A stretch of DNA of 64,000 nucleotides from NCBI GenBank assembly GCA_008360975.2, contig CM039187.1:13471094-13535093 (forward strand). Direction: 5' to 3'. The translations under genes were made by a program, and so were the position numbers. Under the pieces are notes generated by a model. That model worked only from the letters and a program-made list of their open reading frames with translations. It had not been told where the DNA came from and did no database searches. Origin of the DNA: Lichenostomus cassidix (Eukaryota; Chordata; Aves; Passeriformes; Meliphagidae). Position 1 is the first letter of the stretch. Each line of letters starts with the position of its first letter. Positions 3,200-11,900 of this stretch are shown in pieces.

Positions 3200-4000
3200 G
3201 GGCCCTTGGCACGGCGGGCTGCCAGCCCTACGGTCGACTCCTCAAATCCCTGTCGGGCCAGCCTCACGGCCACCCAGACCTTCTGTTACCTCCAACACCA
3301 CCCTCTCGGCTGCCAAGTTTTCCCCAGGGACCTGCAGCCGCATCCCAAAGGCATCCGGGCTCCGGCACTCGCCGTGCCAAACCCCCGGGACGCACAGCAG
3401 CAGCCCTCCCTCGCAGCCCCTCTCCGGGACCAGCCCCGGGGCAGCCGGTATCGCCGCCCGCAGCAACGGGGCCACGTCCTCCAGGGGCTCCGCAGCAGTG
3501 GCGGCGGGTGCCCGTCTCCGGTGCCTCGGGGCGGGCCGCGGCGGACCGGGCGGCTGCGCACACGGGGCGGCCGGGCCCGCCTCCGCCGCTCGGCTCGGCA
3601 GCACCGCGGACAGCGCCCGGCCCCGCGCTGCTCCGCACGGCCCCGGAGACGGCGCCGGTCCGGTCCGGTCCCCCCGGCACGGCACGGCACAGCCCGGCCC
3701 GGCGCCAGCCGCGCCATGGCCACGGAGGTGAGTGCGCGGCGGCACGGCGGGGGCATCCCGGCGGCGGCACCCCCGGGCCGGGCTGCGGCGGAACTCCGCC
3801 GCCCTGCGCTGCTCGCCGCCAGCCGCTGCCGGGGCGCGGCGGGGACAGGGCTCCGCGTGGGGCGCGCTGGTGCGGGAGGACGGCGTGGGGCTGGGGTCCG
3901 TGGGGAGGGGAGTGTGGGGCTGGGGGCTGCCAGGGCTCCGTGTGCACAGAAAGGCCGGTGGGATGCCTGAAGGGGTGTGGGGCTGCAGCGTGGCTGCACG
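3200..4000 (+). promoter_or_regulatory. GOLGA7B: CpG-island promoter of GOLGA7B
   Basis: A very CpG-rich block surrounds the first coding exon and contains many GGCGGG/CCCGCC-type GC boxes. No clear TATA box is seen, consistent with a broad CpG-island promoter. The transcription start cannot be fixed by eye; it should lie upstream of 3716. The large open frames through this block, including one of about 600 codons, follow from the scarcity of stop codons in GC-rich DNA. Confidence 0.7.
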
Positions 4001-5936
4001 GTGCCCTTGGTGAAGGGAGCAGCGTGGGTCTGGGTGGTGCTGTGGGACTGAGGGTTCCTCTCCCAGGCACCATGGGTCGGACGCGGGACAGCGTCAGACG
4101 GTCTGTGGGGCACAGAGCAGGCAGTAGCCCCATGTCAACCAGGGCAAGCGCAGGGAGAGGCCTGATGGCCGCCCTTGGCACAACCTGGCCCCTCCGTTCC
4201 CGTCTTCAGCCACCAAAGCTGCCCCACAGCCCGGAGCTCGGGGGCTGGCACGGGCTTTCACACCCCGTGGGGATTCAGGGCTTAGCACCGGCTGCCAGGG
4301 CTGGCATCCTCTTCATGCAGATGCCCCACTGCAGCCTGCCCACCCGCTGTGCCACGGTTGTAGCCCTGCTGCCCAGTCCCTGCTCCTGCTCGGCTCGCTG
4401 CCAGCCTCCCGCCTGGGAGCTTTGGGGTTGGCTATGTGCTGGGACGCTGCTGGGGACAGGGAGCTGTCCCCTCCCCATGCCGTGGCCCACTGGCGATGCA
4501 TGCTCATGCATGCAGGAACCACTGGGGATGAGACCAGACACCAATCCGGGGTGGGGAGCACATGCACTCACCCTCACTACGAGCAGGATGCTGCCACAGC
4601 GTCCTCCCCTCGCCACCATCCTCCCCTCGCCCCTGGCCTCGTACCTCCAGCGCCGTGCTCATGGTGTGACAGAGCCTGTGCTAGGGGCTCACTGCCCCGG
4701 TGTGTGTGAGCCTGCAGCCTCTGACGCTGGGGGAACGGCGCTCCTCCCCAGGCCCTCAGCTCTCCAGCGGGGATGCCCAGCACCCCTGGCTGCAGCCCCT
4801 CTGTCTCACCCTCTGCCCCCAGGTGCACAGCCTGCAGGAACTGCGGCGCAGTGCATCCCTGGCCACCAAGGTCTTCGTGCAGCGGGATTACAGTGACGGG
4901 ACCACATGCCAGTTCCAGACAAAGTTTCCCCCTGAGCTGGAGAGCCGGGTAGGGAGCCTGACAGGTTGTCAGGGTGGGGGGTGCCTTATGGGGGCTCAAA
5001 GGGGAGGGGGGTCTGAAAGTGTGGGGATTCATGGGGTGTTGTATGGCCCTGGGCCAGCCAGTGCTGCTGGGTGCATGAAATCACAGCCTCCTTGGCTAGT
5101 GTGCAAGGACTTTGGTGCTCCTGGGGGTCGGGAGGCTTTAGTGAAGGCTGCAGGCTCAGCAGATCTTGGTGTGCGTGCGAGGTGGGCAGGGGCCAGCAAA
5201 CTGAGGCATCAGCTGGGCAGGGAGAAGAGGGTTAAGTGCTCCCTGAGGTCCCCAAGGAACGGTGACAAGGCAGTGTAGGGAGTCAGTCCCTGGCCAGACT
5301 CCTTTTCACCTTGGTTTCTGTCCTAGATTGAGCGGCAACTTTTTGAGGAAACCGTGAAAACCCTAAACGGCTTCTACGCTGAGGCAGAGAAGATTGGGGG
5401 CAGCTCATACCTCGAGGGGTGCCTGGCCTGTGCCACTGCCTATTTCATCTTTCTCTGCATGGAAACACATTATGAGAAGGTGCTGATGTGCAGGGGAGGG
5501 CTCAGGGATGGGCATAGCCGGCAGTGGGCACAGAGATGGCACAAGGAGCATGGGACTGGAGGCCAGAGCAGACGGCAATGCTGGCAGGCCCTGAGTGTGC
5601 CTCCCTGTGCTGACAGGTCCTGAAGAAGATCTCCAAGTACATCCAGGACCAGAACGAGAAGATCTATGCGCCACGGGGGCTGCTGCTCACTGACCCCCTG
5701 GAACGTGGCATGAGAGTGGTATCCTTTGGGCAGCGGGGTGCCTGGGAGATGGCAAAGGGTGCAGGGGCACTGGGCATGGGTGCTGCCAATTGGGCTGGCA
5801 CATCTCACCGATGATCCTTAGCAGGGCCCAGATCGAGATCTCCATCTACGAGGACCGGTGCAGCAGCGGCAGCTCCAGCAGCGGCAGCTCCAGCAGCAGC
5901 AGCGGTGGTGGTGGGGGCGGGGCAGGGGGCCGGTGA
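3716..5936 (+). CDS. GOLGA7B: Golgin A7 family member B (palmitoyltransferase accessory protein), five coding exons
   Basis: Exons: 3716-3727, 4823-4948, 5327-5479, 5617-5718, 5832-5936 (stop TGA 5934-5936); all junctions are GT-AG and phase 0. Product 165 aa; the human protein is about 167 aa (memory). The start MATE sits in a Kozak-like GCGCCATGG, and exon 1 encodes only those four residues. The body carries the family core ([20 protein letters not shown], about residues 73-92), whose cysteines are candidate palmitoylation sites. The C-terminal exon encodes ISIYEDRC followed by a Ser/Gly tail of AGC-GGC-AGC-TCC blocks and a Gly run. GOLGA7-family proteins are palmitoylated membrane-associated cofactors of DHHC acyltransferases; GOLGA7B is linked to ZDHHC5 (literature, from memory). 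The exon 3 donor (GTGCTG) is weak but frame and homology fix it. The last exon lies antisense to a CRTAC1 terminal exon. Confidence 0.95.
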
Positions 5937-5950
5937 CTGGCAGAGAGTCC
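5805..5950 (-). CDS. CRTAC1: CRTAC1 terminal exon A (low-complexity Ala/Thr/Pro tail), antisense to GOLGA7B exon 5
   Basis: Acceptor GTCCCTGCAG precedes 5950; the exon starts with two bases completing the phase-1 codon and stays open to TGA at 5807-5805. It encodes [13 protein letters not shown], a Thr/Ala/Gly run, then [18 protein letters not shown]. This matches, from memory, the human CRTAC1-A tail (GTLGQSP..., Ala/Thr run, [12 protein letters not shown]), a region reported to be O-glycosylated. Bases 5832-5936 are simultaneously the last coding exon of GOLGA7B on the plus strand. The final nine codons are antisense to a GOLGA7B intron end and differ from what I recall of human. I found no AATAAA downstream on the minus strand within GOLGA7B, so the 3' end of this isoform is unknown. 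Homology is strong; use in this species is inferred. Confidence 0.8.
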
Positions 5951-8900
5951 CTGCAGGGACTCGTTCTGCCGGGACAGTGGCCTGTCCGAGCTCCGCAGGC
6001 TGCACTACCAGAGCACCCGCTTCTGAGCCCAGGGAGAGCAGGAGGGGGAGGCCGGGGACTCCCCGTGGGGCTGCCCACCCCCATCTGCTCTGTATCCCCC
6101 GCAGTTGGTCTGCCCCTGCTCGGACCCACTGTGGGCAGGGACTGATGCTGGGGAATCCCAGGTGCTTCCCACTGAGCCAAACTGTTGCCAAGGGGCTCCT
6201 ACAGCCCTCCATGTGCTTGGTGCTGCTGCCCCTGCCCCAGGCGAAAGGAGCTGGCCCTGCTACGGGCAGTCCCAGCTGAGAGTGTCCCTGTTGCCGTGCA
6301 CTGGGGAGCAGTGGGACTGGCAAAGCCCCAGGCAGTGCTAAGCAGGGGATGCACACTTAGCCCCATGCCCACAGACACTGACAGCTCTTGCTGCATCCCC
6401 TCCTTGGGGCATTCTGCTCTTGGTGCTGTGGTGTGGGCTCAGCTGCTGCTTGTCCACTCTTCAGGGAGCCTGACAGAGCACTGGTGCCGCTTCTTCTGCA
6501 TGATGGGCCATGGATTCACCCTAGCTCTGTCCCACACTCTGCCCCATTGCTGCTCCCTCATCCCCCTCCCCCATCTGGCACTGCATCCTCGCCAGCAACA
6601 TCCTTCAGCTCTGCCATGACGCTGGGCACTTGCTTCTGCTCCCTGCATGACCTGCTGCCATCCCCTGCTGCACCCAGGAATCTCTTCAGCCCAGTGTCCA
6701 GGGAAGGGAGGTGGAGTGCTGGGCATGATGCTGCCCCTGTGCCCATGGGCTCATTCATGGCCCAGCACAGTTGAGGCTGAGCTGCAGCATGGGTGAGGCA
6801 GGTTCCCTGCACAGTCCTGGCTGAGCCTGCTTGTACCTGGCTGCCAGCAGCCATCTGCCTACCCTGCCCCATGACCTGCCCTAATGCAGGGAGGGTTCCC
6901 AGTGGAGCAGCTCCACAAGGACCCTTCCTCTCACACTGCTGAGCCCTCCCCTGCCCACGTGTCCTGCATGCATCTGCCACCAGCACCCCAATTCTCAGCC
7001 TGGCCTGTAAGAGGGGACCTCGAGGTGCACCTGGGCCTGGCTTCAAGGTGTGGAGGTTCACAGTCCAGGGTCAGATGGGGGAAATAGGAGGGTCCCTGTG
7101 ACATCCAGCACCCCGAGGAGAAGAATTTCTGTCTGGGTGCAAGGCTGAACTGAGCTGGCATTTCTCTCCTGGGGACCTGGAGGGAGGACTCTGCCCTGTG
7201 GGACTCCCTTTGGCTCGGTCATGACGTGTGTGGGGTGGCCCTGGCCTCAACATTCCTACTGGAGCCCCCCCTGCCTGGAGACCTTCCTCAATAAACCCCA
7301 CGCTTCTTCCTCCTTCCTGCCCTGCATCTTCTTGTGTTAGAGAGGTGAGTGAGATAGCACTAGGGGGGCACAGAGTCAGGCTAGGAATTCCTTTTCACAC
7401 TGGGTTGCACAGAGCCTGAGGAGCATGAGCATGGGGGAAGGGAGGGGAGGAGGTGGAAGAGGCAGTCTAGGGGGGTAGGGACAGACCTGTGTAGCAGTCA
7501 TGTGGCCCTGGGACAGGGACACACAAGGAATACAGTGCAGGAAAGGATTTATTCAGTTTGCACCAGGTGCAACTGGCACAGGGCTTGGGGGGGCAGAGGG
7601 AACACCTGGCTGTGCCAGAGCAGGCTAATTGCGCTGGCACCGTCCACCAGCACCCAGGGAGAAGCCATGGTGACAGTGGCAGTGGAAGGAACCAGGGCTG
7701 TTGTGGCAGATATGGTCGCAGGGGCCAGGCTGGGCCTGGCACTCATCTATGTCTGGGAAAGAAGAGGAAAAGGTCAGAGCTGTGCCAAGGGTACAGAGGT
7801 TGTCTGGCATGGGCAGGGCAAGGGATGGAGGGGGCATGATGGGGTGGTTCAGGGCTGGGTGAACCTGGGACGTGAAGGCAGGTGATGCTGCCACTGCTTG
7901 GTCCCAAGGCTGTTGGGTGACAGAGGTCTCCTTGTTCTACCAACTCCTGCACAGCCACAATCTGTCCCTCCTACCCCCCAGCACTACAGCTGTGAGCACA
8001 ACTGGGCACCGTTGACCATCCCTGCTGCCAGGGCAGCCTGGCAGCACCAGGTGGCTGGGCACTGCAGGTACTCACCCAGGCACCGGCTGGCAGCCAGATC
8101 AAGGGGATGGAAACCTGGGTGGCAGTGGCAGGTGTAGGCCCCAGGGGTGTTGATGCAGAGCTGGCTGCAGTTGTGCAAGCCCTGAGCACACTCGTTGATG
8201 TCTGGTGGTGGGGAAGAGAGCAGTGTGGGGTTATAGCATAGAGGGGGAAAAAGCAGCACAGCCCTGTTGGGGTGCAGGCAGGGCTGCTTGTGCACCCCAG
8301 CCCCTGCAGAGCTGCACATTTGCAGAGCTGTCTAGGGCCACCATCACCCTCCAGCCAGCTCCTGGCCCTGGGGTGGGAAGACCTGGGGCATGCAAGGGGT
8401 GCTCCCCATCCTGGGCTCCCTCCCCGTGCAGCCCCAGGGCGGGGTGGGTAGAAGCACAAGCACAGCCCTGCCCCGCAGAGCGCAGCAGACCAGGGTAATA
8501 GATGGGATATAGTTTATTGGGGGTTCTCTGGGAGAGGGGCTGGAAGACTCTTGGGACTAAGCAGGGTCTGACTCCAAACAGTAGGGTCAATACGTTAAAA
8601 AACAGACCAGGAGGCTCCTGCCCCTGCAGGGCTGGGAAGACCCTCCTCTGCCAGGGCTGGGGAGGTGGTCCCCATCACCGTGGAGGGGGCAGGCAAAGCA
8701 CACACGTCGCAGGCCAAACCAGCAGGCACATGGTACGGTATCGAGGCGACGGAGCAAGCGACCACCAGGGAGGTGCCAGCATGGCAGGAACAGCACTGGG
8801 GCAGTGGGGTGCTGGGGAAGGGGCACTGCCGGGCTGCCCCAGGGCTGCTTTCCCAGAGACAGTGCACAGGACAGCCAGGTCTGTGCCTGTCCCACTGCAG

Positions 8901-11900
8901 GTCGCCCCGGCAGGTCCCAGCCGGCACTTCCAGGGTGGTTCGACATGGACAGAAAAAGAGACAGGCAGAGGCCAGCCCATCCTTCCACCAAGGCTGCTCT
9001 GGCATGTTACAGGTAGGGGTCAAAGTGCATAGAGGCAAAGGCAGAGTCCGAGGACTAGAGGGAGGAGGGCACTGTGTGGGAGCCCAGGCCAGCTCCCAGC
9101 AGAGGGATATCCCCCAAAAAAGGCCACTTGAGCTGCACAGAGAAGGAGAGAAGGAGCAAGAGAAAAAAAGAGAAAGAGAAGGAGAGTCAGTGGCAGCTCA
9201 GTGGGAGGCACATGACAAACACACAGAACCAGGGTGGAGGTAGCTGGGCTGCCACCAGACAGGTTGCAGGATGTGGCCTGGCCTCTGTCAGGGATGTCTT
9301 GGTGTCAAGGTGGTGCTGTGGGTCTGATGCCAGCAGGCATGGGGTCAGGGTGTCCCAGCTCTCACTCACCCACACAAGCTGTGCCATCCTCGTTTGGCTC
9401 AAAGCCCCGGCTGCAGCGCTTGTTGCTGCGACAGCGGTACCCGCCATAGGTGTTGATGCAGACAGGCTTGTCCCGGGGACAGATAAAGGGGAACTCAGTG
9501 CACTCATTTGTGTCTGCAAGAGGGTCCTCAGTGTGAGACAGCTGTGCAGAGAGCTTGGGGCTGCTAGCCCCTCCAGTTCCCCCCAGTACAGACTAGATGG
9601 CCACCCCGGTGGTAGCCATGCATAAGCCATGCCTCTGCCCAGGAGGCTCCCAGCACGGCCATAGCCGCCCTGCTGCATCCCTGCAGCCCCTCCGTCACTC
9701 ATGGCTCCAGCACAATGCCTGCCACGCCTCTTGCTTCAGCACAGCGCTCTCACCGCTCCCTGTGACACCACGGTGTCCCTCTGGAGCTGTACTGCTGTCC
9801 CATTCCCAGGCCGTGTGCCAGGCAGGCAGCTGTACCTGGCACTGAGCCATGTGGCAGGCAGCCACCTCCCAGTCTCAGTGTCCCCCATGGGACAATGCTG
9901 CAGCACACCTGTGCCCCCAGCAGCCACTCACCTACACAGCGTCCATTCTCGTGCTGGGAGAATCCCTGCCCGCACTGCATATGGGGAGAAGCAGAGACAG
10001 CTGGGATGGAGAGGAATCAGCCCTGGGCAGCCACTGAGCCAGAAGAGCCCAGCCCTTTACTCCCGTCCCCAAAGTCTCGCACCCTACACCCACACCTGGC
10101 CCTCACCTCCAGCGGGGCAGGCATGAGTGGCTCCTCCACATCCAGAGGGTAAGGGATCTCCAGGACAGAGTTGGTCTCACTGCTCGCCACAGCTCGTGAC
10201 ACCACGCGGCCATCCGGCCAAGTCACCTCCAGGCTGCTGGCTTCATCACGCCCTGCAGGCGGGCAGCCCATCAAAGGGAGGGTCTCCGGGGTGGGCAGGG
10301 GCTGAAAGGAGGCCAGCCGGGTGGTAGGGATGGGAGGGGCAAAGTCTCCCCTTGCTCCCTGAGCCCAGGTGCTTGTGCTGACAGCCAATGCACGTGGATG
10401 TACTCTGGGGGGTGTATATGGGGACAATGGGATGACTTGCCAGTGGGTAAGGACACCCCTGCAGGCTTGGCTGCTGGACACGCTGAGCCATGAGAGGGTT
10501 AAAGGGCAGGGAAAGCCCTAGTGCCTGGGCAAAGCAGCAGGCAGGGGATGGGGAAGGGGCAGCTGCCCCTTGCAGCAGAGCTGGGCACCCTGCCCACAGC
10601 CTTGCACAGGGCCTACCATACCCAGGGTGACAGACATGAACGACTACTGTGCTGCAGGACACCAGGGCAGCAGACACGGCCCCTGCCCAGGGCAGTGCCA
10701 GGGAAGGCTGGGGGTGGAGGCAGCCCCTTGACCCCCTGGCTCACCCAGTCCGAAATGTGCCACAGGCTCCATCTCGCAGAGATAGCCGGAACCGCCGTCG
10801 ATGATGCGCAGGTGAGCCCCGCTGCGCCGCGTGAACAGCACCACCTTGGCTCCCCGTGCAAAGGCCCCGAAGCGGGTACGGGGAATGACACGCAGCCAGT
10901 TGTTGCTGGTGCCCTGCGAGGGAGGAGAGAGCAGACTGAGCTGGGAGGGACAGAAGGGATGGGTACAACACAAGGACTCCCTGCTTAACTCACCTGGGTG
11001 CCCTTGAAGATGGAGATCGGCTGTGCCATGGACTCGCCATGGGATAGGATGAGGTCCAGCATCCCATCTCCATCAAAATCTGTCACTGCACCTCCTGCAA
11101 GGACAGGATCATGGTGTCCTTGGGGCCTGGCCCCATGTCTCCCAGCACCAGACCTTGCTGCTGCTGTGGCCTTCCACAGGCAATAGCAGCATTTCTGGCC
11201 ATGCAGGGACAAAAGGGAAGGTGGGGTGACTCCAATACAGGAGTAAGGGTCTCTGTGTCGTTGGCATCCTGTAATCAGGTGCGTTGGCACCCTGAGCAGT
11301 GGAGTGGTCAGGCAGTGCCTGGAGGGCTGTGGGTCACAGGGAGCTGCCGGATCTCCTCCCATATTCTTTGAACAGTGGGCACCCAGGAAGGGGCCCTCTA
11401 AGAGTGCATCCCCAGGGTACTGGAAAGGGCACTGTTGACTGGGTATGGGTAGAGGAAGAAAGCATGGGCCTGTTCCTGAGTGATGGGAGCTCCAGCCTGC
11501 TGGTGGGGAGCAGGCAGATAATGCAGCCAGGTGTGTGGCATCCTCAGGCATAGAAGGTGCCAAGCAGTGTTGTGGCAGATGGACTTCCTCTGCCAAAACA
11601 GGGTGGACCCACCTGTGCCCCGTCCCTCAGGCTCCAGTGCATCCCCTGGATTCAGCTCTTCCACGATGGGGTCTGAGTGTTCTCTGCGGATGAGCCTACC
11701 GAGGACACAGAGAGTATTACTGCCAGCTATTGCAGCCCTTAGAACCTTCCTGGGCATGTTGCCCCCTCCTGCAGAATCATGGCAGGGGTGACAGCCCAGT
11801 GGCTACAGGGTGTGGATGGCGGATGTGACTGTCCCCTGCCTGTTAGCATATCCCCACTCCATGTAGGGGCAACAGGGGTTTCATGAGAGCTTCTGGGTCT

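Follow-up and report, generated by a model that had tools for sequence, protein, structure and literature searches.

An open CRTAC1-A-type tail frame antisense to the last coding exon of GOLGA7B, with probable use in therian mammals and doubtful use in birds

The window analysed here is a stretch of 64,000 nucleotides from the genome of Lichenostomus cassidix (GCA_008360975.2, contig CM039187.1, positions 13,471,094 to 13,535,093), and all positions are counted from its first letter. GOLGA7B and CRTAC1 lie in the window as convergent neighbours. GOLGA7B is on the plus strand and has five coding exons, all with GT-AG borders. The first four (3716-3727, 4823-4948, 5327-5479, and 5617-5718) were placed by reading frame and splice borders, and the last (5832-5936), which encodes IEISIYEDR followed by a Ser/Gly tail, additionally by the Erf4 family and the GOLGA7 paralogue. 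The stop codon TGA is at 5934-5936. The predicted protein belongs to the GOLGA7/Erf4 family, as it contains the Erf4 domain (PF10256, 119.7 bits against the Pfam cut-off of 29.3) and matches the GOLGA7 structures 9oa6 and 8hf3. No relatives of GOLGA7B were found in viral and genome contig collections, and Rfam at gathering scores gave nothing in the whole window. Upstream of GOLGA7B, (T)GTTAGCTGTGTG-like units are repeated irregularly over a long tract of the raw sequence (~1980-2870).

CRTAC1 is on the minus strand and has 13 coding exons between 17243 and 9370 (FG-GAP, UnbV_ASPIC, and EGF_CA by Pfam), which were chained with the human protein as a guide. The exons form a single frame with GT-AG borders and exon 13 stops in phase 1 at 9370. 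Three 3' ends are compatible with this phase. End B (9132-9020) is of the membrane-form type and is followed by AATAAA at 8513-8518. End E consists of two exons (8201-8076 and 7752-7625) that add two further EGF repeats, and is followed by AATAAA at 7548-7553. The third end is an open frame of the CRTAC1-A type (5950-5805), which is in phase with exon 13 and pairs with GOLGA7B in other amniotes. Acceptors were scored with a simple profile; by this measure the acceptor of end B is at the 99.8th percentile, the two acceptors of end E are at the 98.1st (E1) and 100th (E2), and the A-type acceptor is weak.

The last coding exon of GOLGA7B lies entirely within the open A-type frame. A preliminary description of this DNA had claimed this, together with an exact codon register and the facing of ISIYED by VLVDGD, and the gene models confirm all three. 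Codon position 1 of one gene is opposite position 3 of the other, the GOLGA7B stop TGA is opposite a Ser codon (TCA), and IEISIYED is opposite VLVDGDL[DN] codon by codon. When exon 13 (9370) is joined to 5950 the frame is kept and an A-type tail is read, and the joined tail fits the CRTAC1-A pattern (exon 13 phase 1 plus G[TS].xQSP..VLVDGD) as therian A tails do. The Leu after VLVDGDL[DN] is opposite the CAG of the GOLGA7B intron, the Ser of QSP is opposite the GOLGA7B stop, and the part of the tail opposite the intron varies among species. The description does not mention the nearer ends B and E. It also calls the exon open and spliceable, which holds with two caveats. The site at 5950 is CAG/GG in the right phase, but its score (-0.2, the 62nd percentile of 4972 AGs) is the lowest of the 20 acceptors scored in both genes. 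The frame is indeed open in the sequence, but openness is weak evidence, as the antisense register was free of stops in 43% of simulations in which the protein of the GOLGA7B tail was held fixed and codons were drawn from the local usage of GOLGA7B and CRTAC1.

Openness is hardly telling here because codons with a middle G (Gly, Ser AGY, Cys, and Arg) face codons with a middle C (Ala, Pro, Ser, and Thr). The latter are never stops, so a Ser/Gly tail gives a small-residue antisense tail almost by itself. The last exon of the GOLGA7 paralogue in the same genome is also free of stops in this register, and reads VFINGNFN where the window reads VLVDGDLD. The conserved parts of the A-type tail are mostly opposite GOLGA7B residues, the GOLGA7B stop, the splice acceptor, or the conserved stretch that continues in frame beyond the stop, and GOLGA7B alone would largely account for the survival of the antisense frame. 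A conserved open antisense frame is therefore not proof of a second protein, as one gene can keep the other frame open. The overlap also illustrates a simple route to a new tail, in which Ser/Gly read backwards in register becomes a linker of Ala, Thr, Pro, and Ser. The last exon of the GOLGA7 paralogue (L003, G000:C24) reads IEITIYEDRGLTSGR up to its stop and has neither a Ser/Gly tail nor the stretch after the stop.

Whether the two tails share an exon in other species was examined with a codon-pair test, which requires that each residue pair be encodable by complementary codons and that the tail lengths be equal. The best 120 of 776 GOLGA7B matches (107 with a tail that could be parsed) and the best 120 of 3096 CRTAC1 matches were taken from the protein database. 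A search with the tail only gave 12 matches, 11 of them named and all of these therian. The A-type tail of the window was compared with ten others, taken from QSP to VL[VI]DG (P0156, P0158, P0159, P0161, P0162, P0163, P0228, P0239, P0241, and P0242); P0243 and P0244 duplicate the tail of P0239, and P0238 (killdeer) does not have the QSP part. Each pair sets the CRTAC1-A tail of the first-named species against the GOLGA7B tail of a relative among the matches listed, and only the pair in the window comes from one species. At register 0 no incompatible residue pairs were found for Mirounga/Ursus (0/36, tail length 26), Myotis/Eptesicus (0/38, length 28), Monodelphis/Gracilinanus (0/38, length 28), Macaca/rabbit (0/37, length 27), or the galliform-like P0242/Phasianus (0/31, length 21), and sliding by 1-6 codons gave 7-16 incompatible pairs. 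Fully compatible tail shuffles per 20,000 numbered 3 for Mirounga, 0 for Myotis, 0 for Monodelphis, 6 for Macaca, and 55 for P0242. The human CRTAC1-A and GOLGA7B tails gave 0/37 incompatible pairs and 4 compatible tail shuffles in 20,000. Whole-sequence shuffles gave 0/20,000 in each of the six pairs, counting the human one. GOLGA7B tails of the same length from remoter taxa fail (4 of 5 for Mirounga, at least 4 of 8 for Myotis, and at least 5 of 8 for Monodelphis). For Macaca the partner with zero mismatches is the rabbit, and rodents, which are equally near, miss by 1. Further compatible partners are Lagopus and a partial passerine model for P0242, and at least five birds for the window. 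The A-type frame is open in the galliform-like ORF P0242 as well and, in part, in the killdeer model P0238.

Three tails do not find such a partner. For Sarcophilus and Dama no GOLGA7B with zero mismatches is present among the matches listed (the best has 1 incompatible pair of 37), and for Manis the best among them, from an eagle, has 2 of 33. The only marsupial GOLGA7B tail listed is one codon longer than the Sarcophilus tail needs, and the matches listed include no full-tail ruminant or pangolin GOLGA7B. It was considered that two unrelated low-complexity tails might be compatible by chance, with no exon shared in mammals. Ser/Gly is easily compatible with Ala/Thr/Pro, which speaks for such a coincidence, but equal lengths, zero mismatches at register 0 only, the shuffles of whole sequences, and the occupation of the same bases by both frames in the window make it negligibly probable, and it was rejected. 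The four therian comparisons (0 incompatible of 36-38) uphold the earlier suggestion, made from the human tail, that mammals have the same overlap, and they support the view that in therians the tail of CRTAC1-A corresponds to the last GOLGA7B exon read antisense and in register.

In humans, CRTAC1 overlaps GOLGA7B head-to-tail according to passages of PMC10477339. The same passages describe CRTAC1-A as a secreted, non-neural form of 661 residues with an O-glycosylated low-complexity C-terminal segment, and the neural form as ending in a presumed transmembrane segment. The human tail is of the same type as that in the window and the overlap is already in print, but these passages are silent on coding against coding sequence, on codon register, and on other species. 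The closest known system is TRalpha2/Rev-erb-alpha (THRA/NR1D1), in which a variant final exon of one of two convergent genes lies opposite the final exon of its neighbour (passages of PMC4569393 and PMC3047299) and an antisense coding overlap gives one gene a new C-terminus (PMC4569393). The window shows the same arrangement, with a variant terminal exon frame opposite the last coding exon of a convergent gene. In the passages available the TRalpha2 overlap is reported in mammals only, whereas the CRTAC1-A frame is also open in birds. Unlike the TRalpha2 case, CRTAC1 and GOLGA7B are unrelated in family and the tail is rich in small residues and O-glycosylated. Overlapping coding regions were counted in 51 human and 28 mouse pairs among 13,484 orthologues in passages of PMC2335118, the main text of which does not contain "CRTAC1", and according to passages of PMC2151771 nine human exon/exon overlaps are conserved in chicken. 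Coding-on-coding overlaps of unrelated vertebrate genes are few and are seldom common to birds and mammals. Where an open frame is conserved across from a genuine coding exon, it may be a by-product, the PhyloCSF "ghost" of PMC6886504; in the passages of that source the ghost frame shares the third codon position, whereas in CRTAC1/GOLGA7B position 1 faces position 3. Within the main texts of the literature searched, no description of the CRTAC1/GOLGA7B coding register was found, and a search for C10orf132 together with CRTAC1 gave nothing; the passages of PMC12528901 have no bearing on the tail.

The reading that we prefer, with a probability of about 0.65, is that the A-type frame arose by overprinting as an alternative terminal exon, in the manner of TRalpha2/Rev-erb-alpha, and that it is used in therians, whereas its use in birds is doubtful. 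The CRTAC1 transcript would run beyond the nearer ends B and E, exon 13 would be spliced to the acceptor just past the GOLGA7B stop, and CRTAC1 would then read the last GOLGA7B exon backwards in exact codon register. The Ser/Gly tail would thereby give CRTAC1 a small-residue tail open to O-glycosylation. Constraint would be mainly one-way, from GOLGA7B on CRTAC1-A. Against this reading, Sarcophilus, Dama, and Manis are without a zero-mismatch partner, and the pairs are drawn across species. Additionally, passages of PMC8536980 place the fish Crtac1 duplicates nearer to human CRTAC1-A than to human CRTAC1-B; this would be consistent with a greater age of the A form, although the comparison does not concern the tail.

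Of the two frames, that of GOLGA7B is the older and CRTAC1-A would be the overprinted newcomer, because the GOLGA7 paralogue and fish GOLGA7B share the segment. GOLGA7 in the structures 9oa6 and 8hf3 carries IEITIYEDR, and those GOLGA7B proteins of fish and cartilaginous fish that retain this exon, among the matches listed, have the segment as well, followed by a Ser-rich tail. The claim that each tail constrains the other was not substantiated, as GOLGA7B accounts for most of the conservation. The motif VL[VI]DG[DN]L[DN] is present in 11/11 of the A-type tails compared, which share ancestry and so are not independent, and 11% of random back-translations of IEISIYED yield it. The synonymous changes that can be deduced in IEISIYED are ATC/ATT and TAC/TAT only, and both are conservative for CRTAC1 (V/I and D/N), as selection on both frames would allow. 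At four-fold Gly sites, where P at three positions had looked preserved in therians, the changes deduced from the proteins (10 over 6 sites) gave P = 0.165, which is not significant, and the argument for mutual constraint from these sites was dropped; Manis, whose tail is four codons shorter than that of Macaca, was omitted. The signal at these sites may also reflect CpG decay.

The use of the A exon by birds is doubtful, judged from acceptors, poly(A) signals, and protein models. Neither AATAAA nor ATTAAA occurs on the minus strand between 5805 and 1, and a search of the same interval for 12 poly(A) hexamers gave only ACTAAA (5142), AATACA (2032), and AATAGA (1895). The best-scoring AG in 5820-6500 is at 6022 on the minus strand (8.1, 96.7th percentile); it keeps the phase, lies within the open A-type frame, and would define a candidate longer A-type exon (6022-5805). 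Sites as good occur at ~2.5 per kb, hence it is unremarkable, and no such junction was present in the proteins fetched. The 120 CRTAC1 matches listed were sorted by hand into 53 bird, 22 other non-mammal, and 44 mammal proteins (one of the latter Myotis-like), with 1 unassigned. The birds comprise 27 with end E, 13 with end B, 12 with other ends, and 1 that enters the A frame via another junction; the other non-mammals comprise 11 B, 6 E, and 5 other, and the mammals 8 A, 28 B, 8 other, and no E. The A junction is thus present in 0/75 of the non-mammal proteins listed, a count that is weak because the proteins are clustered at 90% identity and an A form may be concealed by a B form. We infer that the exon is little used in this bird and that ends B and E dominate. 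On the other side, the acceptor dinucleotide and the phase are kept, the in-phase acceptor at 6022 is better than that at 5950, and GTLxQSP is common to the bird tails and most therian ones. The proposal that the overlap is at least as old as the bird-mammal ancestor stands for the open frame and not for a working exon.

Two other accounts of the age of the exon were weighed against this evidence. The A exon may have been born in therians, with birds never having had a working one and with E as their better soluble end, which we regard as a serious possibility at somewhat under even odds; it is comparably plausible that the earlier minus frame was just open and was held so by GOLGA7B and the conserved stretch after its stop. 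Both fit the restriction of A-type junctions to therian proteins among the matches listed, the distribution of E ends there (27/53 bird, 6/22 other non-mammal, and 0/44 mammal), the poor bird acceptor, and the ease with which the frame stays open by chance, and passages of PMC4569393 describe TRalpha2 as having arisen likewise, by stepwise exaptation in mammals. However, a decayed bird exon would look identical, and clustering conceals isoforms. Two-way dual coding across amniotes, in which birds would make a translated CRTAC1-A with 5950 or 6022 as its acceptor and selection would act on both tails, is unlikely. The correct phase and CAG/GG at 5950, the motif common to all 11 tails at 11% of random back-translations, the exclusively CRTAC1-conservative changes (D/N and V/I), and GTLxQSP in bird and most therian tails speak for it. 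They are set against the weakest of 20 acceptors with no AATAAA or ATTAAA downstream, the junction in 0/53 of the bird proteins listed, the shared ancestry of the tails, the four-fold Gly result, and the position of GTLxQ opposite a conserved plus-strand stretch. GTLxQ lies outside the GOLGA7B coding sequence and is the best independent sign of CRTAC1-A, yet it is rivalled because of this stretch.

The stretch in question (5937-6026, plus strand) consists of 29 in-frame codons after the GOLGA7B stop and appears to be conserved in birds and mammals. The residue of the window is allowed at 28/31 positions in P0242, 25/31 in Octodon, and 22/31 in pangolin, compared with 8.8-9.9 in shuffles, where the allowed sets are deduced from proteins in other frames and are upper bounds. 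The length is the same in Octodon and pangolin, and P0242 has one codon more, which was left out of the comparison. A GOLGA7B model of the ruff ends in the sequence of this stretch, which it reaches via an odd junction and not by readthrough. On the strength of the ruff model and the compatible positions it may tentatively be proposed, as a possibility on the less probable side, that the stretch is kept as a C-terminal extension of GOLGA7B (by readthrough or an alternative ending) and that this, instead of CRTAC1-A, preserves GTLxQ and the acceptor region. Against the extension are the upper-bound nature of the sets, the oddness of the ruff junction, and GOLGA7, in which the stop is followed by unrelated sequence with no such stretch; moreover, the same pattern could come from non-coding conservation or from an extended CRTAC1 exon that starts at 6022. 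It is improbable that the locus holds three coding layers (the GOLGA7B exon, the 29-codon extension, and the antisense CRTAC1-A exon) that have shaped one another since before the bird-mammal split, the more so as a minus-strand exon from 6022 rivals the extension; in such a case the possible acceptors at 5950 and 6022 would sit inside or at the end of the extension.

The readthrough motif is TGA CTA, from which the GOLGA7B context TGA CTG differs. A selenocysteine reading of the TGA was rejected, as Rfam at E<=1 gave only a weak mir-2009 match (6883-6935). A search across this genome with the stretch gave, besides its own locus, a single match (E 1.8), and no description of a C-terminal extension of GOLGA7B was found in the main texts of the literature searched. 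Translation of the stretch would give GOLGA7B, which partners palmitoylating enzymes, a form that this literature does not describe. In Manis javanica, the models P0239, P0243, and P0244 enter the A frame via another junction and read 31 codons opposite the stretch. The amino acids encoded where the homologous acceptor would lie are incompatible with AG in that place, and the usual acceptor may have been lost in the pangolin. Beside the GOLGA7B stop, at 5945-5962, lies a perfect palindrome of 18 bases, GAGTCCCTGCAGGGACTC, which is centred on CTGCAG and yields CAG/GGACTC on both strands, the minus copy being the A acceptor.
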